From Ulota crispa (lineage: Eukaryota; Streptophyta; Bryopsida; Orthotrichales; Orthotrichaceae), in assembly GCA_963920765.1 (NCBI GenBank), contig OY987242.1:35426002-35490001 (forward strand): 64,000 nucleotides of DNA. The letters are read 5' to 3'. This document shows, piece by piece, positions 3,298 through 41,837 of the stretch; position 1 is the first letter of the stretch; the number at the start of each line of letters is the position of its first letter. Made by a program: the position numbers and the translations under genes. The notes under the pieces were generated by a model that worked only from the letters and a program-made list of their open reading frames with translations, ran no database searches and was not told the DNA's origin.

Positions 3298-3539
3298 TTA
3301 ACCCTTGAACGATCGAGTAGCCCTTTGCAACGAGTACAATATGGAGAATTTATCTTGTATTTGGAGAGCATCCACACCTTTATTACAATTGAGATCAACA
3401 AAGAAGTCAGAATATAGATCAATGATGTTCTAATGAGGTAGTCAAGATCCCAAATTAAAAAAAACTATTGGTAGCAAATGCCAGTTATACAACAATTCAC
3501 ATAGTATGTATTATAGTAGCTCCGTCGTTCAAGGGTTAA
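3298..3539. mobile_element. TTAA-bounded MITE, family A copy 1, 242 bp
   Basis: The ends are TTAACCCTTGAACGATCGAG and, reverse complemented, TTAACCCTTGAACGACGGAG (18 of 20 matching). The reverse complement aligns end to end with 33261-33502, also exactly 242 bp, and with 41618-41837. TTAA plus CCCT ends is the piggyBac signature. Confidence 0.82.
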
Positions 3540-3559
3540 CCTAATTGTACTTTTGAACA

Positions 3560-4442
3560 TTAACTCCTAAAGTTCTTTTGTATTTACATGGTTAATGGCT
3601 CAAAATTGACCTCCCTCAATAAAATGATTGGTGAATCAAAATTTTGAGTTTTTTTCAATAATTTAACCCTAAGATCTATTTTGTCACTTGCTTATGTACA
3701 TCCGTTCAAAAAACCAAACTTTGTGAGGACATACTTCATTAGATTCTAACACTCGAAGTAGGGACATAACTTTTTTTTGAAGATTCTCTTAAGTGTTAAT
3801 TTTTTTTTCGGTCATTCAAAATGATATCTTCCACTTTATGAATTTCTTGTGCAATTTAACTTTATTGTAGAGCATTAAGTTGGCTATATATCTCATAAAT
3901 TTCATGATCACCCAAGGCTTAAAACATAATGGAAAAAAATCAGAAGTTGGAATTACTTTGTTCAAATTGTCATTACACTAAGAAACTTCTCCAACAAGAT
4001 TTTTATAGAAATAAATCTCAATTACAAAATATGTACGGTGTAAACCTAGAACATCATATGGAGTACTTGCCAAAGTAATTTTTTAATAAATAAAAAGTAA
4101 AATATAAGGTTTTACATAGTTAAGGAGAGTTGACTGCAAATTTTGCCCATTGACCAAGACATTGTAAAGTGCCTTTGAACACTTTTTGGGCAACACCCTT
4201 CCTCAATCCCTTTGTTTATGAAGTTTTATGAGGATGCCCGTGTTGACATCTAAATCATATTTGGTACCATATCTCTCTCAAAAATTATTCAATTCCACTT
4301 TTTTTTGGGAGGTATGCAAGCTTTTCAATATGAATTGCATACAATCTTATTTTCACAATCTTATCTTTCTTATTTACTTGAGAAATGCTTGCTCAAATAT
4401 CCCAAAAGCCCAAAATGAGTTCCTTGGTCCTTTAGGGGTTAA
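3560..4442. mobile_element. TTAA-bounded element, family B copy 1, 883 bp
   Basis: The ends are TTAACTCCTAAAG and, reverse complemented, TTAACCCCTAAAGG. The interior aligns with 40728-41621 throughout, for example ATCTTCCACTTTATGAATTT and CATTGACCAAG. An open frame near 4228 has a counterpart near 41410 but no transposase features. Confidence 0.78.
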
Positions 4443-4499
4443 TCAATTAATTTTAGTAGCTTTCATCCAAAATTTGATGCATGCTATGATTGCTTGGGG

Positions 4500-4610
4500 A
4501 GGGATCTAGAATTTTCATCCATTTTTTCACATGATTTTTCTAGTGCTATGGTAGCTAGTCCAAAATTGAGGTAAGATTTAGACAAAAATTTGCCCGGAAT
4601 TTAAAGGCTG
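4500..4610. repeat. Interspersed repeat shared with 32702-32815
   Basis: It shares blocks such as TTTCATCCATTTT and AAATTGAGGTAAGAT in the same order with 32702-32815. The family is not identified. Confidence 0.6.
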
Positions 4611-5145
4611 CTCTCATCGCTATCCACCTAATTCACTATGTAGGTTGTGAATAAGATATAATTTGTTCATCCATATTTATGTACATCCATCCAAACATGG
4701 TCTTATTGTTCTACTTTAGAAAAAAAACTGCTGCTTTTATTTGGAAATAATGGCCTTTCTAAATAAAGAAAATATTTCATAGCACAAATTTAGATTAATG
4801 TTCCTTCAAAATCACAACTTTGCAAAACAGAGCTACATTTTTAAAAGATTGGCTTTATTGTTCAATAGAAGGTTTGTATTACATCAGACGATATAACTCT
4901 TGGTTGTATACCATATACAGTAACTTAGGAATGTTGGAGATTATTTCCCAAGATACTTGCTTGGGTTCTGATTTACTACATAAGGAATAGATTCTCGTGC
5001 AAGTGGGGGGTTTTGACAAAATGCTATAGTGAGGAGATTCCACACTTTTAGAAAGACAAAGGGACCTCAACATCTATCTAATACTCATAAAAAAATGCCG
5101 CCCCTTACCTGTCTGTTGAGTAATTACTACTGAATTGGTAGGTAA
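4611..5145. other. AT-rich intergenic, nothing recognised
   Basis: No gene or clear repeat was seen between the family B element and the minisatellite pair. Confidence 0.5.
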
Positions 5146-5147
5146 GA

Positions 5148-5357
5148 GGGGGTGGATGGATGGGGGGTGGATGGATGGGGGGTGGATGGATGGGGGTGGA
5201 TGGATGGGGGTGGATGGATGGGGGTGGATGGATGGGGGGTGGATGGATGGGGGTGGATGAGATGTGGGGATGTGGGGATGGGACATGGGACATGGGATGG
5301 GGACATGGGATGGGGACATGGGATGGGGCATGGGGGACATGGGCACATGGGGGGCAT
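5148..5357. repeat. Two adjoining G-rich minisatellites
   Basis: About 5148-5258 is built of GGATGGATGGGGGT-type units. About 5270-5357 is built of GGGACATGGGATGG-type units. The long frames in all phases here are artefacts of the repeat. Confidence 0.9.
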
Positions 5358-6985
5358 GTAATTAAGCTCAAACTTACATTTACCTTGGTAAATGGGTTTA
5401 CATGACTCGTTGGTGTATAAACTTATGCACTTGGAAGGCAACTTTCAAATCTAACCTTAATTGATTTTCTCCCCTTTACAATGCAGCTCATCTTGTTGGA
5501 AAGCCCACCTTGAAGGATACTCTAGAATGTTCAATCTCAAGACAGACACGTTAAACTTTTGTAGCAAGTTTGACACAAAAGAATCATTTTTGCTCTCAAA
5601 AAGTATCACATACCATCACTTGGTTGGCCAACATTCACGAAATCCTCATTTTTTATGAGTGATATTTTTTGGCTTTAATCTTGATGCCAAAAACATTATA
5701 GAGTTTGACAAATACTCATCCAAATCTCAACAAAAGGAGGTTGATATTAACCCAAAATTAGATCACATGAAGGAGTTTTATTGTAATGATTTTCAATAAG
5801 CAAACTTGGAAGATTAATTTAAAAAGGAGAGGAAGCTGCTCAACAACTTACATATGACATTAATTGAAATCGTGAAATTTCAAGAAATTGACCCTTGTCC
5901 AAGCAATCCACAAAACCTCAAATCCTTACAGGTCTTAATTTTTGAAGCTTTGTGCAACTGAATGACACTAAAAGTTCAAAATTCTCTATTATGAAGCACC
6001 AGGTGTCAAGCATTGGGTGCTTGAAAATCACCCAATATTTGAATTCAAAAAGGAGGAGAGAGAGGAAAAAGCAAGGAAAGGGAGGGTGAAAAAGGAAGGC
6101 ATAGAGAGGAATAAGTTGGAAAAGATAAACAATGATGAGAGAAAAAAAAGCATGTGAGACAATGCAAAGCACGGGCAAGTCGTACTTATAATACTGAATG
6201 TTTGTTTTCTATTATTCCACATTTTGGAGTCAATCCACAAACACTCTAGCCTCGGAGTCTCCCATATCTAAAATCCTACTTTGCACGGAGAAGTACTTGT
6301 ACCATTCCATGGTTTCAATATTTTCTTTGCATTGGTAACATTCAAATTCAGGCTCCTCCATCACACTTGATTCTAATATTTTCACATATTTGGGCACTTT
6401 TAAGTGCTCCTTGAAATTGCAAACTTTGTTGTTGTTATTGAAGAATGAAGTTGGAATCTTGGACCACATGCGGTGGTAGGATTGCGCCAACAATTTGATG
6501 AGCAAGCAATTTGGACATCCTTTGTAGTCGCCAAATTGTTCAAAAGCCATTGTTCAAAAGCCATTGTTCAAAGTTTGATGTATAACTTTGAATTTTATCA
6601 AATAAGATCAAAAACTTCCCCTTTCTATGACAATGTAAGAATTTCAATGGAGCCCAAAGTTGCAAGTTTGCATAATGACTACTATGGTAATAAAATTAGG
6701 ACCACCAACTTGCACTTCATTGAGAATAGAATGTAAGAATGGGTTGCAAAGTCACAAATATATAGGTACAAAGCATAAAGTAAAAGAGCAATTTCAAAGT
6801 AAATGAGCAATTTTAAAGTAAAAGAGCAATCTTAATAAAAGAGCAATCCCATTGGATGAGATATGGATGAAAGGTGAGTGAAAACTAGCTTTTAGAAAAG
6901 TTGCATAAAACGTGGAACTCAAGGTACAACGCAAATGTAAAAGGTGACAATTGGATGAAGCACGGATGAAGAAGATAGGATGCAA
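5358..6985. other. Intergenic, no supported gene
   Basis: AT-rich, with a purine-rich patch at 6045-6130 resembling one at 32980-33060. A degenerate short tandem (units like AAAGAGCAAT) lies at about 6783-6850. A 106-codon minus frame at 6230-6550 has two CxxC pairs but no family match. Confidence 0.5.
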
Positions 6986-6987
6986 AA

Positions 6988-7259
6988 GGATGAAGAATGC
7001 AGAATGAACATGGATGAAGAATGCAGGATGAACATGGATGAAGAATGCAGGATGAACATGGATGAAGAATGCAGTATGAACATGGATGAAGAATGCAGGA
7101 TGAACATGGATGAAGAATGCAGGATGAACATGGATGAAGTATGCAGGATGAACATGGATGAAGAATGCAGGATGAACATGGATGAAGTATGCAGGATGAA
7201 CATGGATGAAGAATGCAGGATGGACATGGATGAAGAATGCAGGATGAACATGGATGATC
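6988..7259. repeat. Minisatellite, 24 bp x about 11
   Basis: The unit is close to AACATGGATGAAGAATGCAG plus GATG. The length is a multiple of three, so several frames stay open and encode an 8-residue repeat (NMDEECRM in the plus direction). No start context or flanking coding sequence supports a gene. Confidence 0.95.
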
Positions 7260-7335
7260 ACTGCAAGGGTTTCACAGCTTAGTAGATTTCTAAGCAAAAT
7301 ATATTTTTCCCTCCAAAGCTTTCTGCAAGATAAAA

Positions 7336-7893
7336 TACTCCCTCTGTCCATGAGGGATTTACTGTATTTTTAGTTATTATGCTAGTGAAAATGCATTCTA
7401 GAATCAATATACCACCCATCAAATATCTGTAAAATCTCAAGTTTTTATGTTGTCATTTAGACACCCAAATTCCATGCAAAAAGTATCATATTTGTGCATA
7501 GTTTGTGAGGGCTGCCGGTTCCTCATTATTTTAGTCTTTGTGCTAGTAACACATGCATTCTAGAATCCATATACCATCTACCAAATTTATGCAAAATCTC
7601 CAGCTTTGATGTCTCGGTTTGGGCACCCAAATTTCATGCAAAAAATACCATCTTTGTACATGCTACCAACTCCTCATTATTGATGATTTAAAGATTAGTA
7701 GCAACAATGGTACCTCATATGGGCAAGGCCAAGCTTGCTATGAGAGAAATGCTCTCTAATTGCTTAACTTGCCCCCATGAGATCGTTGAACATGACAAAT
7801 GCTTTCTCGGCATTTGAAATCAACAAAAGGGAGCTTTTCAGTGGTACAAGAAATGTGTCTAATTTGGAGCTTTATATTGGGACAGAGGGAGTA
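7336..7893. mobile_element. Stowaway-type MITE, 558 bp
   Basis: TA flanks a CTCCCTCTGTCC terminal inverted repeat at both ends, the classical Stowaway (Tc1/mariner) end. The interior holds two diverged direct copies of a unit of about 162 bp (from about 7379 and 7541), sharing GCATTCTAGAATC and GACACCCAAAT/GGCACCCAAAT blocks. Confidence 0.85.
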
Positions 7894-9598
7894 TCACCTT
7901 TCTCCCTATGAATTCAAGATTAGTTTCTTGTGGTTTCCCTTATTCTCTCACACAAGAGAGCATATGCTTGCGTTTTTTTTTGCACCTTGCTACATGCACA
8001 AAACTATTTGGTTTCTCATGAGTAAAAAAACAAAGAGCAAGAAAACTTTATTTCTTGTGAAAACACGCCAGTATTTTATCATGTTTTCTCCGAGGTTTGA
8101 AACCCCCTTGAAATAAATCATTGTACCATCCACATTTATGTTCATATGTGAATGTGAATCATAAAGCATCTACTCTAATGTCAACACAAAATGTGTGGGT
8201 TGTGGTTTAAAAAGTGTGAACAATTTTTCAAACAATCATGAGCACTATGAGAGTTGGGTACGGAGATGTGGACATTGTCCTGCACATCACCTTCTTTTTG
8301 CTTCTTCTAGTACCTTTAATTTATTTCACACAATATGTCACTAAGTGCTAGTGCAAGTGCAAGTGGAGATATCCAAAGTTTTTCCTTTCTTTGCAAAAAA
8401 ATAGGAATATTTGGGGTGTCGAAGCTCGGGAAACACAAAAATTTATTGAGACATATTTAGATTAGAATATAAACGTGCAGGTTTACATATTCTCATGTCA
8501 AAAGTAAAATGTTTTGTGCAGGTGCAAAAAAGTGCAAGCATGGGCTCTCTTAAGCTCTCTTGGGTAAGAAAACAAGGAAAACAACAAGAACAACAAGAAC
8601 CTATTTTTTAAATTACTTTGAGAAATTGGAATTTTCCTCACCAAATAGGACCAGAGAAAAAACCGAATTTGCAAAAGAGAGCAAATAATCTTCTTGTTGA
8701 AGTTGTCAATATTCAGTGTGAAACTATTTTAAGAGGGTTTCAAATTTCAAGTCTTGATTTTTTATATTCTATACTAGCGAGAATTCTTGTGAGAATTATA
8801 GAGAATCTAATCCTTTAAATAAATTAAAAATAAAATATGGGAACTTTTGTTAAATCTCATTAATTTTTTTTCTAATTTGTGTCTTTTACAAAGTTTCAAG
8901 TCAAGGGATAAAGCGGTGTGACAATGTAAAATAGAGCAATTATATATAATAGTATAACACATTGGTAGTAAATGTTTTCATACAGGAAAGGACAATAAAT
9001 AAAGGTTTTGAAATAGTCAAAACTAGTTGGCCAAGGGTCCAATTATTGCTTTATATATTTGAATGAAGCTTTTGGATAATTGTCACAGTCATGTAGGAAT
9101 TCCATTAAGCCAAAACAAGATTGGAAAGAGACAAAAATAGTCCCCCTTGTTTAGGCATATGTCTAATAGTTCTTTCAACACTTGGATGTGAGATTTTTCT
9201 TATTTGTGTTTGTCAAAATGCCAAGCTTTTGAAAAAAATGAATTTTGTAGCCATTATCTATATAAATATTTAGTATAGTTTCAAAATTTTAGTGATAGAC
9301 CAAAAGATCCACAATATTGTCAACCTTTATTGAGACCTCTAAATATATAGATACTTTGATCTTGCACTCTACTTGAGATGCAATAATTGCATTCTAAAAA
9401 CATCAAATTTTCATACCACACCATTTCATCTATGTTTTTTCAAAGTATATCAAATCATGTGCAAAATTGCAAGTGCAATTTTTATCTTCGTTCTTAGAAT
9501 TTCAAAAATTAAACTATTGGCTTGCCGCAATTTTGTTATGTAAGGAAACACAATCCACATTTAAAAAAGAACAAAGAATATGTTTAAAAACAAACTAG
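7894..9598. other. AT-rich intergenic, nothing recognised
   Basis: Only short frames without coding character, for example 7799-8116 and 8618-8818. Confidence 0.5.
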
Positions 9599-10090
9599 TA
9601 TAGTGTGTGCCACCATAAACCAACAAAGATGCAACAATCATATTAACTATTTATAGCAACCCTCAAACAATTATATCTCTTTGTAACTACAAGCAATGAG
9701 ATGTTAGGGAAAAAGTTACAAAGAGAAATTGGAATTATCATTTGCCAATAAAAAGTTATCATCATTCAAAAATGGTAACTATTGGGCATTTTACACTAGG
9801 AGAGCAAAGAATTGGCCACTCTAGCACTAGTTGCCCCAATATTTATAATTAATTTAAATCAAATTAACTCGCTAAAACACTAAATTTACAACAATCCAAA
9901 AAGAAGCACTCTATTATGTTAGGGCATTGTGTATCATGCCGAATCAGCCAAATCAACCAAATTAGTAGGTGCCATATGAAGTTTGGGGGGCAAGGCAGGA
10001 TAAAGGGGAAAGAAAAAAGCAGGAAAAAACATTGCTCACTAATTTGGTCGTAGGAGGGCAGTTTGCTGGTTTATGGTGGCACGCACTATA
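9599..10090. mobile_element. MITE with 29-bp terminal inverted repeats, about 492 bp
   Basis: The left end begins TATAGTGTGTGCCACCATAA and the right end is its complement over 29 bp with two mismatches. No coding frame is inside. The superfamily is not assigned. Confidence 0.8.
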
Positions 10091-10965
10091 GCACATTTGG
10101 AAAGGGTACACAAAAATTGAAAGCCTTCAAGTTCTAATTTCAACCCTTGGGCAACTAAAAGTTTTTCTTTGTTTATGCAAAAGAGATTGAAAATTGATTA
10201 TAAGTCATAATCAAAGCGTTTCCACAAAATGTTATTCCATTACTTTTTAATCAAACGTAAAAAAACAACTTAAGATCTCTGCAGACCTAGCTATACTGGG
10301 TCTTAAAACCAAAAGCCTTGTTAAAAAGAGCAAGAATTGTGTTTGGGCTTTGTGAAATGAGGGAGTGTTTAGCATAAGTCACGCAGCCTTTAAGTACATA
10401 CATAAAACAGTGGGTGTTCGCACCTAGTGACATAAAGTGCAGTCAATAAACTACTTTTTAAAACCACTGGTGTTTGTTAGTTGAGGCAATTGCCTTGCAT
10501 TAACTAAAAGCAAGCCTAAACAGCTATAATCTTCATTACAATTTGATTTCTTCAAAAAAAACTTGACGCAAGTCTCAAAAGTGATGTAGTAGTTCAGTAT
10601 TTCCCAAGTCTAACCACTGCTCCTATGTAGAGACAGGTCAGCCTCTAACTAGGAATGGTTATTACCCATGACTGTTGGTGTGAATTGAAGAGGCAACTTT
10701 GCCTAAATCCTAACTTTCAAGACTGCTAGCTATGCCAGGTCTGCACAAACCTTTAGTACTATTGAAGACTTTCAAATTTGAGAATCACATGTGTATAAAT
10801 TTGATAACTTTAATCACATATATCCTAGCAATTACCTTGCATCCATATAAGGACGATCACTTTCATATAAGAACTATCACTATAAAAAATTGTAATATAA
10901 AGAATCTTTGATCATGGTATACTCTAATCAACATGGTAATACTTGAACATTGCCATGAAAACAAA
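10091..10965. other. AT-rich intergenic, nothing recognised
   Basis: No gene or clear repeat before the degenerate array begins. Confidence 0.5.
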
Positions 10966-12765
10966 AAGAACCTCCAAATTGTATCAATCAACTAGCTTGA
11001 CATGTGCTAAAGACTATCTTGGACATTGTTATCCTACTAATGAGTGTAGTAACCAACCAAGCCCATGCTAAACAACTTCTCAAAAGTTTGTTTTTACAAA
11101 CAAAGACCCTACCAATTACAAATATTCAATTAGCACAACTTGTGCTAAACACCATATTAAAAGGTCATTCCTTTACAAATTAGAGCTTACCAATCATATC
11201 AACCAACTAGCTTGAACCATACTAAACACTATCCTAAGTCATTGTCCTACAAAGCAACTTCTAGCATGATGATTATATCAACCAATTAACTCAACCCATG
11301 ATATGGTGGACATATAGGCTCAAAAATCATTCTCCTACAACCAAGCAAACCAAGCAATCATATCATCTAACTAGCTTGGCCCACTTTTGACACAACCCTA
11401 CAAGTCATTGTCCCACAAATCAATGCTTAACAATTGTAAACCAAAACTTAAAACCTTACATGACTATATAAATCACTTAGCTTGACCCACAATATACTAG
11501 ACACATAGTCTCAAAAGCTATTCTACTACAAATCAATGCTTGACAAAATTGTATAAACCATCTAGCACAACTTGTGTCATGCACCAACGTGAAGAGACAA
11601 TTGCATCAACTAACTAGCTTGACCCACATTACACAACCCCAAGAGTCATTATCATGCAAACTAATACTTAACAACTATATGAACCACAACTTAAAGCCTA
11701 GTGATTATATCAACCAATTAGCTTGACCCATGGCACACTAAACATACAATCTCAAAAGTAACTCTTATACATATCAATGCTTCACAGCTGTAGGAACCAT
11801 TTAGCCACAACTTGTGTAGGAAAAGAAAACATAACAATACTGCTTAATGATTGAAAGATTATAATGCTTGATCAAGAGGGTGTTAAAGCCGCAAAAACAA
11901 CTTCAACTCTTTCAATCCTCTTTTCACATGTCAAATCTAAAATGTTGATCACCAAAAAAAATATGAGGTTAAAAGAAATAACATACATAGCTCCAATCCA
12001 TTTACTGGTTTTCAAAATCTCTTTTACAATTTTTTAAAATGAATTTCTAGTGTGAATTTTTCTCTAAGATTTAGTGTATTTGAGGCTCATTTTCATTAGC
12101 TCTCAACACTAAAAAGGTCAAGATTGCAATAGACACACTTGCACAATATCTTGAATAGAAAATTCACGATCAATAATTTTCAAAATCAAGTTTTTGATGC
12201 TAAAATAAACTTCAAAAGAACAATTCTATAAAATACTAAATACTAAATAGCAAATTTGTTAGGTTTTATTGAACTTCAAAATACTGTTGGCACCAAAATG
12301 TGGTGCCTCGGGCATTTAGGGGTTAAACATTGTCGTTAAGGGACAATCATATCACTCAACTAGCTTGACCCAAGTTAGACACCATCCCAAGAGAATTACC
12401 CTACAAGTCAATGCCTCACATTTGTATAAACCAAAACTTAGAGCGCAGCGGTTATATCAACCAATTATCTCAACCTCTGATACGTTAAACACATAGTCTC
12501 AAAAATCATTCTCTCGCAAATCAATGCTTAACAATCATAGAAATCAACTAGCACAAGTTATGTTATACACTATCAACAATCATATCAACTTACTTAACCC
12601 ACGCCAAACACCATCCCAAGAATCATCCAACAAATCAATGCGTCACAATTGAATGAACCAAAACTTAGAGCGTAGTGATTGTATCAAACAATTAGCTTGA
12701 CCCATGATATGTTGGAAGCACAATTTCAAAAGCCATTCTCTTGAGCACATGAAGCACTTTGTGAC
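10966..12765. repeat. Decayed satellite-like tandem array ending at the GST gene
   Basis: Diverged units recur with motifs such as CAACTAGCTTGACCCA, ACAAATCAATGCTTA and AACCAAAACTTA. Spacing of the best-matching blocks is about 230-245 bp (for example about 11474 to 11716 and about 12445 to 12672). A non-repeat segment of about 500 bp (about 11815-12330), ending in a TTTAGGGGTTAA motif, interrupts it. The array stops a few tens of bases beyond the GST stop codon. Confidence 0.75.
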
Positions 12766-12787
12766 AAAAAAAAAGAATGGGCTAGTG

Positions 12788-15700
12788 CTACAAATCGGAG
12801 CCTAACGACCGAATCAACCAGTTGAGGTGAGCACGGAGCTGCCGGGCAGCCGGGTACGAGAGGTCCCGGGGAACGCCCACCAGGTCTCGCAAATAAGCGG
12901 CAGCCACGGCCACTTGTTCAGGAAAGCGCACACCGTTTGCGGCAGCACCAGCGGGCACGGTATCCACGCCCTGCACCAGCGCATTGGCGACCAGGTGCAG
13001 CGCCAAGTCCACGTCGTCCCGGTACTTATCACCGCCACCTGGCAGGCCTCGCAGGGCGAACCCCACCACTTTGTCGTGGTTGCTGATCAACGTCCTCGCC
13101 GCTTCCTGCTTGGCACCGCCTGCGCCGGTGCCGTCGTCGAAGCCCCAGGCCGTCTGCTCCGGTTGCAGCGGCAGCTCCCACCCCCCGTCTTTGCCGTTGA
13201 TTTTGTCCCGGTACGCTTGCCCTGCTGGTGCCGATCTGTGACACCCATTGGATTGGTTTGAGAAAAAACACATCATAAGGTATGTACAGTAGGCTACCAA
13301 AAAGATTGTTACCTCTCTAATTTTTCACTTTTTTTGAAGTCATTTTTGGCAACAAAAAGAGCCAGCACATTATCTTTTGATTTTGACAAGCTGCTTATTG
13401 GGAATTATCATGTCAGTAGTGGTGGTTTGATGTATGTATTTTTGAATTGAAAGCTCCTCAAATCCATGAGAGGAAGGCGATAAAAAAGAAAAATGTGACA
13501 ATCTTTTTGGTAGGCCATTGTACACCCATAAGCGTCAGTGTCCCCATAACTGTCACCTCTGAAATCTTGGAAAATCTGTGAAAGTGAATAGATGTAATGA
13601 CAAGAATGTACAACATGTGAACATGAAATCTTGAAAGTGGTTATGGGTGCAATGGCAATTTGCTCTTTAGAAACTCACAACTTATTCTCACAATATCCAA
13701 ATAATACATTCGAAAGTGCAAACTTATTAATTTTCTGTTCCTAATAGGATCCTATAATTTGTTAGCTGCTTATTGATACTCATCATGTTCAAAACCCTTA
13801 GTTTGACGCTTAGGGGTGTACATACCTTAAATCTTGCTAAGATGGAGGCTCTAAGATAGCAACACCCATAAGCATGAAACTAAGGATTTTGGAGGAGGAA
13901 AATCAATTGACGAATTTTGAAAAAAACATTGTCAAGTTAGCAAGAGGAAACCAAAAATATTAGTATCAATTTTAAAGTTCCAATTGCAAGTATTTGTTCA
14001 CAAAGATTTTTCAAAGTCCAAAATCACTGAAAATGTATAGTTGTGCATAGGAGATGCTAAAAATAATGCTTACTTAGTGTGCTCATATGCTCATAATACT
14101 AACTTGAGGAATTCTTAAACAATGAGATGGGGCACTCAAAACCGTCATGCCAATCACCCAAAACCATCACTTTGTCACCCATAACCAATTTTTTTTGTAT
14201 ATTGACGTAGAATTTGGCACGTAGGCAATGCTCATGGGGACATTCACAGAGAGGGGTGTTGCTACCTTAAAAGCAACCATGTTCTAAATGCATTTCCTAT
14301 TTAGGAATGAGTGACATGTTCAATCAGATATTATCATTGATGAGTTAAGTAGGTTTAAATGGTTGGTTTATGGACTTCCTACCTTAATTTTCCTTTTTTC
14401 TGAATCGCTTTAGTGTATGACACTTATAATCAACAACTATTGTTGCTAAAGCACAACACATATATCCATGAGCTCAATAACAATTTCACCAACAAGAAGA
14501 ACAAAACCCAAGTTGCATCTTGGCAATCTCAAATTATTGGTGGCTTTTTTTGACAAAGTAATATACTAGCTGCTTAAATTTAGGAATTGTTGGTTATAAG
14601 CGTAGTACACTATAGTTAGAAAATGTCACCGGTTTTGATGTTCTTTTTTATTGATGGAAAAACATTGAGTTTGTGAAAATATGGCATTTGTTGATTAGTG
14701 CTAAGAGGCTGGTTATATTTGACCATGTATAGCCAATGAATTTGGTATAATTAATGATGTTATAATGTTTACTGGCTTTGGGTCGCAAGGGAGCAGGATG
14801 TTTTGCATTGAGAGAAGTTGGAAGAAGCGACCTTGAGCAAGTTTGAGTAAATATCTTAATGTCACATTTAACTCTTTAACAACAAGAGTTCTGAAAAGAC
14901 ATTAGAAATCGACCACTTTCTGGTTACCTTGGCCTTAAAGCGTTGATTAAGTATGGACTATCCAAGAAAGATGTGTTAAAATAAAAAGACATGCGAAAAT
15001 TTGAAAAGAGTATATGTAAAATAATAGTAAATCTTTAAATTTTAAGGACATAGAAAGTCCAATAGTAGTTAAATGTGTCATCTTACTCGAAAAGCAAGCT
15101 GATGTATTATAGGGACAAAACCTTTTATAGAGCTTCTTGTAGCCTCACGTAGCATAACTGCTTGTTTTTTTACAAAGTTTCTTCTTACATTCTTAGAAAT
15201 CATGATGGTCCACTTTGCATTTGCAATAAATTGTATGCGTAACCAGATTTTTCTTTATTAAAGTTGCAAAAACAGTGCTCGTGATGTTCAAAATATAACA
15301 TGTGACATTTTCATGGATTAAGCATCATAACGTTATGTATTTTTACATAGAAAAACAAGATTTAAAGAAAGCATCTTGTTTTAGGATAGAAAAAAAAACA
15401 TAACAAACCATTTCCATTAGAAGAAAAGAAAAGCACCTATGTAGAGTGTGATGTTTTTTGAATACTTTTCAAGGCAATTTGGATGAGTGTTTCGTTACAC
15501 AAAAGTATCACATCTACAAAGGGGTTCGTCTTCTGATAATTGAATGTTTTCAAGCAATTTTTGCAACACAATTAGAATTGTGTTCTATGTAGTGTCCGGG
15601 GAGGATTTCAAACTTCATTGGCAGAAGTCCAACATGTCTCATTTTCAAATGCTGATATTGCCTACATATTTATACTGTAGTTGAACATGTTTTGAAATTT

Positions 15701-20808: not shown

Positions 20809-20817
20809 ACGACTTTT

Positions 20818-22462: not shown

Positions 22463-22465
22463 GTA

Positions 22466-26507: not shown

Positions 26508-26665
26508 GCAGTTCACACTATGTCCCACATCCCACTAAAGTATAGTTGGTGTAAACTCAAAAGTTGAGAGTCTCAAGTCCCACACCTTGGTTGCTTACAT
26601 GGCAACACTTTTTGAAAATTTTGACACCAAAGAAAGTGGGACTTCACTCAAGGTTTCACTAGTAG
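26508..26665. repeat. Solo arm of the 228-1890 foldback
   Basis: It shares TTCACACTATGTCC, CATCCCACTAAA, GCAACACTTTTTG and GTGGGACTTCACTCAAG with the right arm at about 608-778. Confidence 0.75.
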
Positions 26666-28569: not shown

Positions 28570-28769
28570 NNNNNNNNNNNNNNNNNNNNNNNNNNNNNNN
28601 NNNNNNNNNNNNNNNNNNNNNNNNNNNNNNNNNNNNNNNNNNNNNNNNNNNNNNNNNNNNNNNNNNNNNNNNNNNNNNNNNNNNNNNNNNNNNNNNNNNN
28701 NNNNNNNNNNNNNNNNNNNNNNNNNNNNNNNNNNNNNNNNNNNNNNNNNNNNNNNNNNNNNNNNNNNNN
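28570..28769. other. Assembly gap (200 N)
   Basis: A run of exactly 200 N. Its right edge falls three bases inside the third WRKY exon. The round number suggests an estimated or fixed gap size. Confidence 0.99.
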
Positions 28770-29134
28770 CTCCTGCAGATTTCAAAGCCCTTCTTGCGTT
28801 AGCCATGCCCCTTGAAAAAAGGGGCATGGATGAAAATTTCAAAACTTCGACCTTGGGTTTGCACTAGAGATGGAGGGGATGGAGGCTATAGAGAGTGCTA
28901 TTGCGTGTGTACCTTGGATGTGGGCTGTTTTTCACAGCTTTCTGGCCGTATTTACGCCACTTGTAGCCGTCCTCCATGACTTCCACGTCGCTGCGCGTTT
29001 GAATGGCGTATCTGGGCTCCCTGACCCTCTTGTTCAATTTGGTTTTTTCTTTTTTCACGGTCCTGTAAGATGGGAGGACGCTGAAACCATTAGGGATGCT
29101 TTTTCTATAGAGAACCACCCTTATTGCCAACAAG

Positions 29135-29175
<41 letters not shown>

Positions 29176-32320: not shown

Positions 32321-32465
32321 TTAGGGCGTCCTTCCATGCTCACCCGGTGGCTGTTGGAGATGAATTTAGCTGACCAGATTGGGGTTCCAAACCTTGATCT
32401 GATTGATTATTGATTGCCTAAATTTATCTCCATTGGCCACCGGGTGAGCATGGAAGGACTTCCTA
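32321..32465. repeat. Short hairpin-forming element, 145 bp
   Basis: Arms of about 48 bp share TCCTTCCATGCTCACCCGGT and its complement, separated by about 45 bp. Confidence 0.85.
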
Positions 32466-33260
32466 AAACATTCAATAGTTAAAAGCAAAAAATCTGAAAC
32501 TTAAGCTCCACTTGCAAAACAAGGCTTTAGTCTCTAAATTTTGTTTTTCTTTCTTTTGATTGTGCTACACTCACCCAACAATGCAAGCAAGTAAGGAAAA
32601 ACCAGATATAAATGGATAGAATCAATGACTTGTGCACGTTCATTCATCTACTAAAATTACTAGCTTTCATTTGAATTCTAGCAAACATGGTGTTTATTTG
32701 AGGAGGAATCCGGCAATTTCATCCATTTTCACCCAATTTTTTCTAGTGTTATGATAGTCAGTCACAAATTGAGGTAAGATATTGACAAAATTTTACCAAA
32801 AATTTAAACGCTGGACCCTAACTAGAACATCCTATGATCCCACCTTGGCAAAGGGTGTTGTTCAAACCTAATTGAGCAAGCCTAAAATCTTGATGTAGGA
32901 ATAACATACTGCCAACATCCTTTCAAATCTCTACAACAAAGCGTTGGGTTTATATCATGATAGGAAATTCAAAATTCATAGAAGGAAGTGGAGAGGAAAA
33001 GGTAGGAAAAGGGAGGAAAAGGGAGGGTGAAAAGCCATCAAAAACTAAGAGAGAGACGGCTTGAAACAAGGGTGAGACACATCACTTTTATGAGGCGTGC
33101 ATGAAATAGAAAATGACTCTAGTCTCTTTTATGAAAGTTGTTGTAGAGTAGGAACTTGAATCTTAAATTAAGTATTGGAAGACCAAGTACAAATGATGGT
33201 AGATCTGGTAAGACTACACACTCCCGTGAAGATGGTGACTTTATTTTACCTATTAAAACG
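32466..33260. other. Intergenic with a diverged repeat copy
   Basis: 32702-32815 resembles 4500-4610. The rest is unremarkable AT-rich sequence and a purine-rich patch at 32980-33060. Confidence 0.5.
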
Positions 33261-33502
33261 TTAACCCTTAAAGGATCGAGCTACTATAATACATAATATG
33301 TACATTGCTACATAACTGGTATTTGTTACCAATAAAATGTTTTAATTTGGAATTTTAACTACTTCATTAGAACAGCATTGATCTACATTTTAACTTCTTT
33401 ATTAATCTCAGATGTAATAAAGGTCTGGATGCATTCCAAATACAAGAAAAATATTCCATATTGTACTGGTCACAAAGGGCTGCTCGGTCGTTCAAGGGTT
33501 AA
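33261..33502. mobile_element. TTAA-bounded MITE, family A copy 2, 242 bp
   Basis: Bounded by TTAACCCTTAAAGGATCGAG and the complement of TTAACCCTTGAACGACCGAG. Same length as copy 1, opposite orientation, high similarity throughout. Confidence 0.85.
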
Positions 33503-33632
33503 TTTACTTCATTCTATAATTTGTGTGACAATGTACATAATTATACACACACATAAGTGTGCACATAAATTATGTGTGGTATGATTGGGAGTGTAAACTA
33601 TAAAGGGACTTTATCTGTCAACAAGGCACTTG

Positions 33633-34547
33633 TTAACCCCTTAAGGACCACGCGACCATATGTTGGTTGCTAGGAGTGGTTTTTGGCTTGTAGGTTGAAA
33701 TCACTCAATAATTTGGAATTTGGTCTTGAAGTACGCATGTGATCACAAAATTTTTGCATCCATCTAAAAAAATAACAATGCAATTGGGTATGTGAGTTGA
33801 TAAATAATGGTGTTTGTATGGCATGGCTTCAAAATACGTATCCTTTTTTTGTCAAAGATGAATCAAAGCAACAACACAATACATCATGTATGCAAGAAGA
33901 ATGTCAAATTTCAATTGCACAATTCTAAAAAATTTCAAATTGCTTAAGAAATATGCTTGAATTGTTTTCATGTACGGTAGTAGTATAATTGTAGTATTTG
34001 AAGATATACTGAAATGTTGTTGTTATTTTGGCTTTACAATTTGTCATCTTACATTTAAGGCCAATTCTTGATTGTTTTCACCAATTGGATTTTCCGGAAT
34101 AATAATCAAATTTCTTGTAGAACCATTTTAGGGTAGCAAAGAAAGTGGGTTTTTTTACCCTTTTTGTCCACTTAGCTACACCTTGTGATTGCTATTTTTG
34201 TCTATTTAGTGTGGAACTAGTCTTGTTGGAAAGGTGGGAAACCTTGCTTTTTAGAAATGTAAGGCTCTTCTCAATCAAAGCTTGCATGAAAGGTTAACAT
34301 TCAAAACTAAGCAAGAATGAAACACAAGAGATTTTTTGCATGCGGCTCACTCAATCATTATAATATTTCACCTCCAATGGTAAATCTAGCTAAAATTTTG
34401 GTGCTTTACAATAAACAAGGTGTACTTCCCATTTGTATGGTTGGATTATTGAAAATGGGTCCATATTTGAGTCAATTCCAAATTTAAGCTTATAGCCCCT
34501 ATTTTCAATGGATTTTGTGAAAATGGGTGTGGTTGTTAAAGGGTTAA
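33633..34547. mobile_element. TTAA-bounded element, family E, 915 bp
   Basis: The left end is TTAACCCCTTAAGGACCACG; the right end, reverse complemented, is TTAACCCTTTAACAACCACA (16 of 20). No transposase frame. Only one copy is in the window. Confidence 0.66.
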
Positions 34548-34669
34548 GTTAATCAAAAGTGGTTGCCATGACATTGCATGTCAATGATGGAGGATCCATT
34601 GCCATTTCAAAAATACATAACTTTTTTAGCGCTTTATCAAATCATCCCATTGGTTCTAAGTTTATTCTA

Positions 34670-34849
34670 TATAATGGTGCCTCAATAAGATGAAGGTATC
34701 TAGACAGCATATTCATTTCGTATAAGGAAAGCATTCATTATAAGCAAACACATCTTTTGTAACTCCCTAACCGCTAGGGATAGTCATCTCTTTCATCTTA
34801 GCTAAGCGTTTTTTCTTATAAAGGTTCATCTTAAAGAGGCACTACTCTA
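34670..34849. mobile_element. pogo-like MITE, 180 bp
   Basis: It aligns along its length with 58146-58330, including GGTGCCTCAATAAGATGAAG and TTCATCTTAGCTAAGC. TA at both ends. Confidence 0.88.
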
Positions 34850-36431
34850 ATGTGTTTTGACATTCTACTGGGTTAAATTAAATCCACCCACATATTTTAA
34901 AAAGGGATCTCTTGGGTTCTTGCAAAGTATGAAGTTCAATTTATTTTACGTTATGTGCCCTCCTAAGTTTGATTTCGGTATAAGATGTCTCAAGCAAAAT
35001 CTAAAATTAGTTTCGAGTTTTCATTGAGATACCAAAACTTAGTGAATATATGCATCCCTTATACCTAGGCCCTTCTTCACTGAAATCTCAAATATACCCT
35101 TGTCTTTTGCCATGTCTTTTTTAATACTTCTCCTAATGTTTACCTTTAAGGTTATGTTGAACTTGATTGGGAACTTAGCACAGCAAAGACAATCAAACAT
35201 CTTCCTCACGTGCACATGCTAGTACCCCCTCCCCCCCCTACCTAGATATTGGACTGAAGCAATACAATGGTGTATTTTGAAAGGATATTGAATCTAAAAT
35301 TGATTTATGTTGATCGATTTTTGCTCTATTGCTTGTTGAAAACAAACTCACATTGTTAAGAAAATATTTAATTAGCAAACTACAAATTTTGAGATTCCTT
35401 TCATTTGTAATTGAGACTTTAGAAAAATATGTTTAAAAAAAACATAGCTACCCTAAACCATATTCTGAAGGTAGTCATTTTGTAAACAAAAAACAAATAA
35501 ATCTATCTTTCAAAGATTTGAAGAAATAGTCTATTTTATGCATTGATATCAAGGAATCAAAAGATCTCCTGTTCAAATAACGTGGATCCAAGTCAAGGTC
35601 AATTTGTAGAAATATATTGTAGAGTTGCAATTTTGCAAGAAAGTAAATTAGAATGTTTTGTAAAATGTTCTTCATTGTGGAATGAATGAAATTGTCAAAT
35701 ACCACTCCCAATTCTTTACGAGGAGGATGACATTCTTGTATTTGGATAAATATTTGACATTTTATCTATAAGATATTTCTTTGTGAATGTTAATAAATTC
35801 ATTGTTGTAGTACGTATCATAAGTCATACTACTTTGAAAAAGTAATAATAGTAATATTCTTAGTCTAATTTCTTAACATAATAAAATTTACAACTTGACA
35901 ATATACAAGATTTAAGGATACACTGCTGGAACACAAAATATAGAAACTTTAGAACATATATTTAGTTCAAAGTCTTTTGTTAGTCTTCTACCGAGACAAA
36001 TTAAAACAACAAAGCATTGGCAAACTTTATTTTTACCCTAATATATATAATAAATTTGGAGCAGCAAAAGCCACGTGGACCCGAGCATAAATCCTTTTCA
36101 AGGCAGGGTTGTACGTATGCTGCAGTCACTCATTGGTGCCACGTGGCTTTAAGAATCCAAGGTTGGGTAAGGGAAGGACGGGAATCCATAAAAGTGTACT
36201 TCCAAGATTTCATCCAGATTTTTCAAAAACATTACAATGTACGTCTGAAAACAATTTTCAAATATTCACTTTACATTATTTTTTGACAATTAGAATCCGC
36301 GTCTAACCAACCTAGCTTGATTTATATCGTTTTGAGTTTAGTATTGCTTTATTTATTAGATTCTGAAGTTAAAATAGGAGTATTAGATGTGTGCTTACCA
36401 TAAAATGCTTGTCAAGGGTATGATTGAAACT
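34850..36431. other. AT-rich intergenic, nothing recognised
   Basis: No supported gene, RNA or repeat. Confidence 0.5.
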
Positions 36432-36723
36432 TTAACCCTAAAGCGTCTTGCTATGAAAATTTAGCATAACTAGAATATGAAATTTTCGGCACGTTTCATG
36501 AGTTTTTGGAAAGTTGAGCAAGTATTCACACAATTCAAACTGGCCATTTTACACCCAACTGTAAATCAAATGTTTAAAGTCATTTTTATTTCAAATCCAA
36601 CTAAATTTGCAAAATTCCCAGCATTGAGAATGTCATGTTTGTTAAATTGGGTTGTAGTTTACTATATTGGATTTTGGACTTTGATGTGATTTTTTCCCAA
36701 AAATAAAACCACCTAATGGTTAA
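36432..36723. mobile_element. Possible TTAA-bounded element, 292 bp
   Basis: TTAACCCTAAAGCG on the left and, reverse complemented, TTAACCATTAGGTGG on the right. The ends agree weakly, so the assignment is tentative. Confidence 0.4.
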
Positions 36724-37116
36724 TCCCATGAGACCGCATCTAGCTATACTTGATGGAAAAAAAAAAAAAAAAAAAAACTCCTCAAATGGGAAAAAATCCA
36801 AAACATATGGTCATTCAAAGTAAGTGGATTCAATTGGCTCACTACTTTATAGCTACAAAAACCTTGCCCAATCGATGGAAAAAAAAGTGACAAATCACCA
36901 ACCTTCTCCCCTATACATGGGAGTGTGGGCTTCCAACCCATCCCATCCAAAATTCCTCCATCCATAATGCAATGTACAATGCTTATATACACTCCCACTA
37001 ATAGTTTTAATATCAAAAATAGTAAATTCAAATGTTTGGGTGCAAAATCTAAAGGCTTCAAGGGACAATAAGCCAGTCAAGAAGTTTTGTTGAACTTGTC
37101 GTTCCATTTGGACTTG
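36724..37116. other. Intergenic with a poly-A run
   Basis: A-rich run at about 36755-36777; otherwise nothing recognised. Confidence 0.5.
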
Positions 37117-37325
37117 CATAACATTGTTAAGCAGAGGAAAGAGTTTTCCTCCCCGTGTGGAGGGACATTCCTCCCCTGATCCCTGGGGAGGATTTTAGTT
37201 ATAATATACTCGCTTTGAGCCACTCAGAGCAAGCATATTATAACTAAAATCCTCCCTAGGGATCAGGGGAGGAATATCCCTCTACACGGGGAGGGAAACT
37301 CTTTCCTCTGCTTAACAATGTTATG
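37117..37325. mobile_element. Near-perfect hairpin element, 209 bp
   Basis: Two arms of about 100 bp are nearly identical inverted copies, running from CATAACATTGTTAAGCAGAG inwards to GATTTTAGTTATAATAT. The loop is only a few bases. The ends match 20110-20350. Confidence 0.93.
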
Positions 37326-37633
37326 TGAGTGGCAAACCAAACATTGACCATGCAATGCCTTTTTTGTCTACTTTCACACCTTTGAGAACCCCTTTGGCCA
37401 TATTGGGCTCTTTGGTCCTTTAGAGTGTAACCCTTCTGCTTAACGACAATTTTAGAGCAATTAGGGACAAGGACAAATTCACTGCGCCCCTCCTTTTTAA
37501 ATTCTAAAAGGATTAATAATCTATGGAAGTTATTTACACATGTTTCTATCCTAAAATAAAAGGGAATTCTAATATAAGTTTTTGAGCAACTTATTGAGGT
37601 CACTTGAGTACCTTATCAAGGATGTTATGACCA

Positions 37634-37853
37634 TTAATCCTTGAAGGGCCCTTGGGCTCTGGAGCTATGATACCAAATACGATCGCAACCAATATTTAGA
37701 AGTTTGAATCAACTGGAAATTAAGTGTTACAACCATACATATTGAAGGGTTGTATTATGGTGGGTGCATAAAAAAAATTGGAAAGCCCTCAAAGTAGCTC
37801 AAATAAGTCTATACATACGATCACAAAGGGCTTTTGTGACATTCAGGGGTTAA
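37634..37853. mobile_element. TTAA-bounded MITE, family C copy 1, 220 bp
   Basis: The left end is TTAATCCTTGAAGGGCCC; the right end, reverse complemented, is TTAACCCCTGAATGTCAC. It aligns with 61100-61328 along its length (GAAATTAAGTGTTACAA, ATGGTGGGTGCA, AAAGGGCTTTTGTGACATT). Confidence 0.8.
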
Positions 37854-38282
37854 GGGAGTTTGCTTGAAAAGTGACATCATAAGAGCCGGTCTGATGTTTT
37901 CAAGGGCTTTTCAAGACATGAATCTTTTTTGTCTAATTTTCAAATAAAGAGAAATGGATTTCAAATGTACCCCAATTTTTTTCATTTTTTTTGAAGCATT
38001 ATTGTAATATTAATCATTTTCAAAGTTTTTTGTAGTAGACACCTATTGGTGACTCTAAGTCTCCCATAAACAACCCCTACAACTTATGAAGAGATGAGGT
38101 GAAATCAAGAAGTATGATTGACTCTAGCAATAGAACACACCTTTTTTTTTATGACTTACATTAATCCATTCAAAGACCATTGCATTACCATTCCTTATAC
38201 CCCTATGGGAGGGGCAGCTTTACTGATAGACTACCTTATGCTATGCAAATACTTGGATGGTAAATTTGTGGCTTAGATAAAT

Positions 38283-38694
38283 GGGAATTGATATGTGTAC
38301 CACACCCTTTTCAATTACTGTACCACACCCCCAAAGTAAATTTTAGATTTTTACCATCAAAAAGTTGAATTTGAGATTTTGGAATTCAAATTTGGACTTA
38401 GAGACCATGATTTAGTCTAGAACCACACAAAAAGTTGCAACTCAACAACATCCAATGAAAAAGCTTATCTTTTTTACAAACAAGAGTAAAAGTAACACTT
38501 TTCTTCCTAACTAAACTTTCTCATTGGGTGTTGTTGAATTGCAACTTTTTTTTATGGTTCTAGACTAACTCATGATCTCTAAGTTCAAATCTAAATTCCA
38601 AATTCTCAAATTCAGCTTTTTGATGGTAGAAATCTTAAATTTACTTTAGGGTGTGGTAAATAATTGAAAGGGTGTGATACACATATCAATTCCC
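38283..38694. mobile_element. MULE-like foldback, copy 2, 412 bp
   Basis: Ends GGGAATTGATATGTG at both termini as inverted repeats with arms near 200 bp. It is flanked on both sides by the identical 9-mer TAGATAAAT (38274-38282 and 38695-38703). Nine-base duplications are typical of Mutator-like elements. Confidence 0.9.
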
Positions 38695-38703
38695 TAGATA
38701 AAT

Positions 38704-39173
38704 ATACTTATTGAATTATCTTAATGTCTATTAATATAGAGAGTTGCAATAACTTATCCATCACAAAAAATGAAAATCACTTCTTGAATGAGAACACCAA
38801 GCTTATGAATAGACTGAAATAGTTAAAGTGTCTACAATGATTTTCTCTACCTCACACCAAAATCATCATATTGAAATACAATATCAAGTTGTTTACTCTT
38901 AAGTAACCTATAAATTTTATAAATGACATTTTGGAAAAATCCCAAAAAAAGTAATTACAAAGAGGCGTGAATTTTTTTGAGAAAATGTCCTATAACCTTT
39001 AACAAAAGGAATGATTCTGTTATATAGTTGGTTTTCATTTGTAGAGAACCAAACAATGTATCACTCTATAGTATGCCATGGACAACACAAATGCTTGTAA
39101 TTACAATAAAATTAGGACACATATGCTAGTGATTTAAATATAGATATTTCATAAATCTAATAAATCATGTGGT
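38704..39173. other. AT-rich intergenic, nothing recognised
   Basis: No feature recognised. Confidence 0.5.
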
Positions 39174-39284
39174 ACTACGGGGAAACCATGGTTGAATTGA
39201 CAAAAAAATGTGACCTAATTTACAGTAACTATAGATTAGGTCACATTTTTTTGTCAATTTGATCATGGTTTCCTTGTAGTGCGG
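39174..39284. repeat. Hairpin element, about 110 bp
   Basis: Arms of about 52 bp share GACAAAAAAATGTGACCTAA and its complement and GGAAACCATG. The loop is very short. Confidence 0.9.
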
Positions 39285-39769
39285 TACTGCCAAAATAATC
39301 ATGTGAAAAACTCTAACAAACACCAAACTTGATAAAAGTGTGTAGAATTTGGAAAATTTCTTCTCAATTCTATTAATCAATCATATTATGCATTTATGAA
39401 GCTAATAATCCTCTAGAAAATATTAAATCTAAAGTGAGACTACCCAACATTATTCACCTCATTCAAGAAGTCTCCACAACAAATCCAAGATGCAAAGTAG
39501 CTTGCAATTAATAGGTGCAATTTTTTTTAATAAACAAGTAGGGATGAAGGAGAATTTGGCATAGTACAAAAACAACTAAGAAGTAATAAAAAAAAGTACA
39601 AACAACTAGTTGAACAAAAACTTGGCTCGCTCTATAAAACAAAAGAAGAGCATGAACGCTATGTGATGTCGATTCAAAATGTGTCTTATTGACACCTTGA
39701 CTCCATTGCTGAATAATATTATGAAACCCTCACTCTTTCCATGGACCACGAGGGTTTTTAAGTTTTTGT

Positions 39770-40018
39770 TTAACCCCTGAGCGCCCCACAGGTTAGAATG
39801 TGGTCTTTCCATATTTGATGGTTTATTGTCTTTGACCGTTATAATATTTGGATCCATGCAACAAAAACTTACCAAATTTTTCATACATATGCGGACCCTA
39901 AGCCTTGTGCAATATCAACGACTAACTCTTCCAGATGTTGTTTTTGAACTTGTGGTGCCAAATTATTTGCAATAAGATCTAACACAGCATGAATTTCAGC
40001 TGAGCGCTCAGGGGTTAA
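39770..40018. mobile_element. TTAA-bounded MITE, family D, 249 bp
   Basis: The first 15 bases, TTAACCCCTGAGCGC, are a perfect inverted repeat of the last 15. A 62-codon minus frame (39881-40069) runs through it and out of the right end. Confidence 0.76.
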
Positions 40019-40111
40019 TGAGACTTCATTTTCATATAAAACAATGTTGGTGAGAAGTCTATAGCCCAACTTGACTTCGTTTTTCTTTTTCTTTTGTTGT
40101 TATTATATCTT

Positions 40112-40560
40112 TTATGAAAGCAATTCATGTACGAATTTGAAAGGCACCGCACAACCGCTCTTTGTATGCCCAGTGTCACTGTAGTTTTGTAGTTTGTAAT
40201 CCTTGAATGGCATGTGAGAGATTCCAAATTTGTCACTATTTCCACGTGTCAATAACATAATGAACTTTGAATTCTCTTGGTACAACTTCAAAGGAAAGCT
40301 TATTTGACCAGTGACGTGTGCATCTACTTTTAAGGGCGGTTCATTCTGTCCTACATACGAATTTTCCCACCTCAATGCAAAATCCCAACTTCGTTGGGTT
40401 ATACTGTACGGGGCAAAGTTAAATACAGTATACAAAAAAGTCTTGGATATTTCAAGCAAAACAATAATTGGGGATTTGGGTTGGAAGCTGAGTTTTTCTG
40501 TTTGGGCTGGACCCAACTCTTGAGCTATGTCCCATCTTCTTTCGGTGCCAAAAAATTCAA
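40112..40560 (-). pseudogene. Unrecognised coding-like fragment
   Basis: A minus-strand frame of about 150 codons has balanced amino-acid composition (for example ITQRSWDFALRWENSYV and KLYQENSKFIMLLTRGN). Most AT-rich frames here look random by comparison. It begins after an upstream stop without a clear start codon context and ends at 40112. The same frame reopens at 40069-39881. I recognise no family. It may be a captured or decayed gene exon, or chance. Confidence 0.3.
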
Positions 40561-40727
40561 AAAAATTGTTACATAAGCATGTAAAGTGAATTAAGATGTT
40601 AGGGCATAATACGTATAGCCAATCAACTCTTCATCAAACAAACTCTAAGATTTTAGTGGAACTCTTAGTCATACATAATGTTATAACCATTATTTACAAC
40701 TAAGGCTAATTTGGTATAGTTTATTCC

Positions 40728-41621
40728 TGAACCCCTGAAATTCTTTAGTGTTTACATGCTCAAATGGCTTGAAACTGACCTCTTTCAATAAAACAATTAG
40801 TGGATCAAATCTTTGAATTTCTTTCAATAATTCAACCCTAAGATTTAAATTTTTGCTTACTTATGTACACCCTCTCAAAATTTTGGTCTCAAAATTTCGG
40901 ACTTTGTAAGGACATATTTCATTAGATAATAACACTCAAAGTAGGATCAAAACTTTTTTTTGAAGCTTCTCTAAAATGTCAATTTTTATTTTGATCATCC
41001 AAAACAATATCTTCCACTTTATGAATTTCTTGTGCAATTTGAGTTTCTTGTAGAGCATGAAGTTAGCTACATGAATTTCATGATCATCAATTGCTTGAAA
41101 CATAGTGGATTTTTTTGGGCGGGAACTAATTTGTTGAAATTGTCATTACACTAAGAAAATTTCACTAAAGAGATTCTAATTAGAGTAAAAAATCTCAATT
41201 ACAAAATCCATACAATGTAAACCTAGAACATCATGTAGAGTACATGCCAAAGGAATTTTATTCCATAAACAAAAAGTAAAACATAAGTTATTACATAGCC
41301 AAGGAGAGTTGACTGCAAATTTTGCTCATTGACCAAGCCATTGTAAAGTGCTTTTGAGCACCTTGTAGGCAACACCCTTCCCAATCTCTTTGTTTTTGAT
41401 TTTTTAGGGATGCCTGTGTTGACAACCAAATCACATATGGTACCATATCTCACTCAAAAATTATTCAATTCCACTTTATTTTGGAAAGAATGCAAGCTTT
41501 CCAATATGAGCACATACACCCATATTTTCATACTCTTATCTCAAGTATTTACATGGAAAATGCTAGCCCAAATATCCAAAAAGTCCAAAGTAGGCTCCTT
41601 AATTAGTCATTTAGGGGTTAA
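40728..41621. mobile_element. TTAA-bounded element, family B copy 2, 894 bp
   Basis: It aligns with 3560-4442 in the same orientation. The left end is degraded to TGAACCCCTGAAA; the right end is intact (complement TTAACCCCTAAATGAC). It shares its right TTAA with the family A copy at 41618. Confidence 0.76.
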
Positions 41622-41837
41622 CCCTTAAATGACCATAGGGCATAGTATATACGTTGTCATATAATTGGTATTTGTTACCAATAAGAAGTCTAGTTTGAGA
41701 TCTCAAGTAACTCACTATAATTGCTTTGATCTATTCTCCAACTTCTTTGTTGATCTGTGTGTGAATCTATTCCAAAAACAAGAAAAAGACCTCATTTTCT
41801 ACTGGTTGCAGCAACATGCTCAGATGTTCAAGGGAAA
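41618..41837. mobile_element. TTAA-bounded MITE, family A copy 3, about 220 bp
   Basis: It starts TTAACCCTTAAATGACC and keeps TGGTATTTGTTACCAATA and TCAAGGG of the family. The right TTAA is mutated. Confidence 0.75.

Follow-up and report, generated by a model that had tools for sequence, protein, structure and literature searches.

A probable piggyBac-superfamily MITE family and TTAA/CCC-ended transposase elements in the genome of a non-flowering plant

Transposons of the piggyBac group are familiar chiefly from insects and other animals. Elements of the piggyBac superfamily are characterized by terminal inverted repeats (TIRs) of 12-19 bp with terminal CC[C/T]T and by a TTAA target-site duplication (TSD), according to the passages of PMC2872659 at hand. 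Regarding plants, the available portion of PMC2528002 gives five cut-and-paste superfamilies as described by 2008, with piggyBac not among them. Extracts from PMC12732532 call piggyBac in plants occasional as of 2025 and name red algae, and those from PMC8086355 and PMC10140906 mention its occurrence in plants without detail; as far as these extracts go, piggyBac has rarely been reported from the host group considered here. In the open-licence literature, we found no description of a native land-plant piggyBac family; an earlier bryophyte description is possible. The window analysed in this study covers 64,000 nucleotides (C1:35426002-35490001) of a genome assembly of 274,817,297 bases in 157 contigs, and contains three related sequences that a sequence-only reading had proposed to be piggyBac-like miniature inverted-repeat transposable elements (MITEs). 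We consider it very probable that they belong to the piggyBac superfamily as a family of non-autonomous MITEs, presumably moved in trans by the transposases of 5-6 kb elements, and that their host is a non-flowering land plant. The family resembles the coral CMITEs, as portrayed in the same passages of PMC2872659, in being small, in its CC[C/T]T inverted ends and TTAA duplication, and in the presence of piggyBac-like transposases in the genome, whereas the CMITEs measure about 100 bp and the MITE here about 242 or 234 bp in a plant host; the likeness is one of layout.

Copy 1 was located at window positions 3298-3539 on the plus strand and reads TTAA-CCCTTGAACGA...TCGTTCAAGGG-TTAA, with the TTAA words at 3298-3301 and 3536-3539. 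Copy 2, at 33261-33502 on the minus strand, likewise has TTAA at both ends and is 83.9% identical to copy 1. Both start with TTAACCCTTGAACGA or kin and close with its reverse complement or kin. Indeed, these two copies are just as the sequence-only reading had described them, namely exactly 242 bp long, bounded by TTAA, with inverted ends and in opposite orientation. The presence of CCCTTGAACGA at both ends fits a TIR of 12-19 bp with terminal CC[C/T]T, and no gene was seen inside the three window copies. The third copy, at 41618-41834 and opposite in orientation to copy 1 (minus strand), proved to be a genuine relative, showing 70.6% identity to the subfamily A consensus and 77.6% over 201 bp to that of subfamily B (see below), but it is decayed: TTAA is present on the left (41618) only, and GGG at 41834 is followed by AAAT.

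Subsequently, the family was examined across the genome. A similarity search with copy 1 gave at least 39 further full-length or near-full-length copies, with the best 40 of 2559 first-look candidates scored; window copy 2 was absent from these best 40. A pattern with both 15-bp ends matched 12 loci, copy 1 included, against 0 for the reversed control, and the exact 15-bp single end occurred 116 + 122 times genome-wide against 1 + 1 for the control. Forty copies were fetched, consisting of 31 of the 39 similarity matches and nine loci from the end pattern, which demanded TTAA. Since few of the similarity-chosen copies keep the exact end sequence (8/31 left and 2/31 right ends), the MITE copy number is estimated at roughly several hundred, with a sample that favours sequences similar to the window copy. 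Two subfamilies, related to one another, were distinguished among the fetched copies: A, with 34 copies and a consensus of 242 bp, and B, with six copies and a consensus of 234 bp. The subfamily A copies were 88-97% identical to their own consensus. A degenerate family-wide end motif, TTAACCCYTRARNGNCCNAG, which was designed after the MITE and transposon ends had been seen, occurred 5676 + 5678 = 11,354 times genome-wide, about one per 24 kb, against 0 + 0 for its control.

TTAA was observed on both sides in 24 of the 31 similarity-chosen copies, and in 33 of 40 when the nine picked by the TTAA-demanding pattern are included; by side, it was present at 37/40 left and 35/40 right ends. The remaining 7/31 similarity-chosen copies have TTAA altered at one or both ends, as judged by eye. 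The 30-bp left flanks were mutually unrelated (mean identity 26.6% over 780 pairs, maximum 53%). The TTAA boundary proposed from the window copies thus holds for most copies examined, in unrelated surroundings.

Empty sites were also sought, by joining the flanks of 35 copies (33 fetched and two from the window) round one TTAA and searching them against the sequence fetched by then. Junction-spanning relatives were found for four copies, L068, L063, L052, and L065, of which L068 and L063 were counted as empty sites; L065 was dropped as ambiguous, its junction lying inside a repeat with its own TTAA alongside. For L068, a relative at 37634-37853 of the window (minus strand) is a repeat with a single unbroken TTAA, whose end at 37853 reads TTAACCCCTGAATG; the same repeat at 61108-61328 (minus strand) provided a second relative, whose end at 61328 reads TTAACCCCAAAATG. 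The unbroken ACACTTAATTTC was read in these two stretches, in L006, in L067, and in one of two L065 stretches. Among the six rows aligned to the L063 site, L079 was a clean match with a single TTAA, and two diverged window rows had TTAA beside a gap. Because the empty-site relatives of L068 and L063 have a single TTAA, the filled sites are read as carrying a TTAA duplication. Besides, three diverged copies (65-70%) of the repeat that hosts L063 elsewhere lie in the window at 45657-45924, 52437-52722, and 62442-62681.

A profile search of the genome with PF13843 (DDE_Tnp_1_7; Pfam name 'Transposase IS4'), which we take to be the domain of piggyBac transposases, gave at least 120 matches (116 scored of 527 candidates) on C1-C11, the best with an E of 1.3e-73. 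No PF13843 match was obtained in 14 control genomes, but this comparison says little, since all of them are prokaryotes. An open stretch, L019:1366-2532 (minus strand), matched PF13843 at E 4.1e-67, and its sole matches in the PDB at E 0.001 were piggyBat (9c0f, E 2.6e-24) and piggyBac (6x67, E 7.6e-20). Its VDE, TDNFFTS, and GVDIVDQ align with the corresponding motifs of 9c0f and 6x67 (DE, DNFFTS, and GVDxxDQ); the element ends of L019 were not found. L014 and L102 matched 9c0f and 6x67 likewise. The aspartates of the catalytic motifs, which presumably play the catalytic DDD roles, are kept in the aligned open pieces of L014, L102, and L101, with CDE in L014 and CDNF in L102; of these, L014 belongs to an element with both ends located. 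The open frame of L101 is split into 350-841 and 1112-1801, and the interruption between the two pieces may be an intron. Open transposase domains with catalytic motifs were thus present in L019, L102, and the two L101 pieces.

Thirty transposase loci were fetched with 1.5-kb flanks; 13 were extended, and 17 were seen with these flanks only. E009, E014, and E030 were selected for extension on account of a GGGTTAA end that could be seen in the 1.5-kb flank, E018 as the sister of E009, and the other nine for few stops or related copies. At five of the 13 extended loci, a TTAA-to-TTAA unit with TTAA/CCC inverted ends, agreeing at 11 or 12 of 14 positions, encloses the PF13843 domain: E009 (5027 bp, ends CCCCTCATCGCCAA/CCCTTCATTGCCAA), E014 (5102 bp, ends CCCTTGACCGCCCA/CCCTTCACCGCCTA), E030 (5360 bp), E010 (6010 bp), and E013 (5586 bp). 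Between the domain and the element ends there are 2.3-3.3 kb on the upstream side and 1.4-2.1 kb on the downstream side. E018, which lies on another chromosome, shares 90.5% identity with E009 over 5029 bp; the homology spans from TTAA-CCC end to TTAA-CCC end and gives way to unrelated flanks, the left TTAA of E018 reading TTCA. E023 and E028 show a weaker TIR match, with TTAACCC present at both of the expected ends, E022 and E026 have one TTAACCC end each, and E015 has TAACCCC, the first T being absent; for E019 and E020, no TTAA/CCC end was found. Because TTAACCC is common in the window (24 observed against 11.8 expected, with a maximum of 22 across 50 simulations), end-pair controls were run, with a geometry fixed after the elements had been seen. 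None of 1136 pseudo-domains along the window was enclosed, and 5/156 were enclosed when arms were swapped between loci, against 5/13 for the real loci. Longer TTAA/CCC-ended elements with a DDE_Tnp_1_7 domain, for which the sequence-only reading had suggested looking, are thus present in the genome, but a transposase with the exact MITE ends was not found.

As for the relation between these elements and the MITE, the left end of E014, CCCTTGACCGCCCAAG, and the MITE end, CCCTTGAACGACCGAG, agree at 13/16 positions by eye. BLAST of the MITE consensus against the 13 stitched transposon loci gave short weak matches only. When the regions up to 1.5 kb from the transposase domains were searched for the exact ends of the MITE, no locus had them on both sides, the elements being longer than that. 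Among the 13 extended loci, no autonomous partner with the MITE's own sub-terminal sequence was found. As the likeness was not seen to continue into the sub-terminal sequence, that these enzymes mobilise the MITE is something we infer. In the proposed course of events, a transposase encoded elsewhere in the genome by the 5-6 kb elements would act on the MITEs in trans by cut and paste. The enzyme would recognise the CCC[C/T]-type inverted ends and cut the element out, and the excised element would be joined into TTAA, which would become duplicated. If the chemistry of Trichoplusia ni piggyBac can be carried over, the reaction would involve a hairpin at TTAA and usually seamless excision.

At seven of the 13 elements (E014, E009, E018, E010, E019, E015, and E030), a coding stretch of 63-110 amino acids was observed about 1.5-2.5 kb upstream of the transposase domain, for instance at L081:1622-1951 and L079:4603-4932, and also in L082, L083, L093, L097, and L080. 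It is open in four aligned members, has stops in E009, E018, and E010, and shows the conserved pattern VxNCLxE..LLSLP...RxWRxLFxRQIAKILGW. A Pfam scan of the four open members gave no match above the cut-off and one sub-threshold match to DUF938 (E 0.08). Within the sequence fetched by then, the stretch occurred at transposon loci only. It may be either exon 1 of the transposase or a second gene or protein. The elements share with T. ni piggyBac (6x67) and piggyBat (9c0f) the PF13843 domain with aligned catalytic aspartate motifs, the TTAA duplication, and the CCC-type ends. They differ in their non-flowering land-plant host and in the upstream segment conserved at 7/13 loci; moreover, they measure 5.0-6.0 kb, whereas the T. 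ni element is given as 2472 bp in the extract of PMC10140906.

Several observations weigh against the piggyBac reading proposed here. Eight of the 13 extended loci showed no TIR pair at 11/14, and when loci had been chosen without a visible end, a pair was obtained at two of nine (E018 left aside). No sub-terminal sequence shared with the MITE was seen in the fetched transposase loci beyond the ends. At the insertion sites, the other L065 stretch aligned to L068 has CTAAAT, three of the six L063 rows (two of L004 and one from the window) are without TTAA, and L052 was dropped as an empty site, its relatives' rows having no TTAA; such TTAA-less relatives may be due to decay or otherwise. Only 10 of the 120 PF13843 match rows are without an internal stop, the other 110 carrying stops. 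Finally, a TA duplication combined with A...T ends in an obligatory T-TA-A target would, on paper, also give the letters observed. A Tc1/mariner-type element with the ends ACCC...GGGT, inserting only at T-TA-A, would accordingly leave identical letters at filled and empty sites. However, it requires a strict flanking T and A, which it leaves unexplained, and the PF13843 elements share the TTAA-CCC end layout; we regard it as very improbable.

We rate just as low the possibility that the MITE is of Tourist type and was mobilised by a PIF/Harbinger transposase, with TWA duplicated as a 3-bp target. Tourist elements are widespread in plants, plant Tourist and Stowaway MITEs are similar to the present family in size, copy number, and inverted-end layout, and TTAA contains both TTA and TAA. 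Nevertheless, the inverted ends are symmetrical only with a TTAA duplication, a 3-bp TSD making the element asymmetrical, and the long elements with similar TTAA/CCC ends contain PF13843 rather than an unrelated transposase, in a genome not searched for PIF transposases. Tourist and Stowaway elements, moreover, go with TWA or TA and with PIF or mariner, whereas a TTAA target and piggyBac transposases are found here. A Kolobok-type element would also duplicate TTAA according to the extract of PMC9587614, which gives Kolobok termini as 5'-RR and YY-3' against 5'-CCC and GGG-3' here; with piggyBac transposases in the elements bearing such ends, it is the least credible of the alternatives. A different matter is whether the MITE copies are fossils of a piggyBac-type family whose autonomous partner is extinct. 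This is a sub-case of the piggyBac reading, with which its probability overlaps, and we put it a little short of an even chance. In its favour are the failure to find an element combining the exact ends of the MITE and a transposase, the 88-97% identity of the subfamily A copies to their consensus, and the frequent stops in the transposase matches; on the other hand, the domains of L019, L102, and the two L101 pieces are open with catalytic motifs, and the extension reached the ends at no more than 13 transposase loci. Taken together, TTAA on both sides of 24/31 copies and PF13843 in TTAA/CCC-ended elements support the assignment of the MITE family to piggyBac, and neither of the two outcomes that the sequence-only reading had named as contrary to it was obtained.

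With regard to the host, the earlier statement that the DNA comes from a plant was supported by the NAM and WRKY domains that the window encodes, by which the host is a land plant or close kin. Several chromosomes have dynein heavy-chain domains, with 16 match rows in all, 10 of them free of stops. An AT-rich plastid contig has the order rbcL (third-position GC 0.109), tRNA-Arg(ccg), and a 312-amino-acid accD, and a chlL-like fragment was found on C7, adjoining an assembly gap. Dynein heavy chain, plastid chlL, an accD of reduced length, and the order rbcL - trnR-CCG - accD are diagnostic of non-flowering plants; these features point to a non-flowering host, most likely a bryophyte. The marker cysT had no match in the genome, and the host could be either a moss or a liverwort. 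The chlL-like plastid-type sequence (L104:439-1021, C7, minus strand) lies beside an N run and had no match in the 112.5-kb plastid contig C157; either plastid DNA inserted into the nuclear genome or faulty scaffolding would account for it. A match to the RuBisCO large subunit within a 964-codon open frame was also seen on a second contig (C97:118173-118940).

The window contains further TTAA-CCC elements in addition to those of the sequence-only reading. A scan for TTAA pairs with a TIR of at least 11/14 within 1.2 kb gave 11 pairs, five of which have a left end starting with CC; when each of 15 other four-letter words replaced TTAA, 0 or 1 CC-starting pairs were obtained. The units recovered, without an assigned strand, include a 942-bp element at 835-1776 (ends CCCCTAAAGCACAA / CCCCTAAAGGTCAA), a 915-bp element at 33633-34547 (ends CCCCTTAAGGACCA / CCCTTTAACAACCA), and a 249-bp element at 39770-40018 (ends CCCCTGAGCGCCCC / CCCCTGAGCGCTCA). 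Copies about 81% identical to the 915-bp element were seen in L057 and also next to transposon E014 (L081 17-929). Some of the TTAA-paired units may be old or composite. Single TTAACCC-type ends at 4442, 12326, 36432, and 42857, with no partner at 11/14, are perhaps decayed or longer elements. A candidate transposon end at L012:78-411 (C5:10868316-10868649) was rejected; it is a palindromic 334-bp repeat, and the two copies that were read lack TTAA-CCC ends. In this repeat family, nearly all of the best 40 scored of 4099 candidates match on both strands, and in L012 and L022 the repeat sits between short repeated flanks.

The mechanism considered here is ordinary; the interest lies in the host, the abundance of the ends, and the conserved upstream segment. 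There is about an even chance that a long-established, hardly described land-plant piggyBac lineage has become a dominant DNA transposon in this bryophyte-like genome, with thousands of TTAA/CCC elements and MITEs, and with 5-6 kb elements having a distinct N-terminal module as a new first exon or a second protein. The numbers in this plant genome, at least 120 matches to the transposase and more than 11,000 piggyBac-type ends, suggest that annotators of such genomes could wrongly class TTAA-type MITEs as unknown or as Tourist. Furthermore, native plant piggyBac transposases become available for study alongside the insect enzyme, which, according to the extract of PMC10905368, now serves as a tool in rice.

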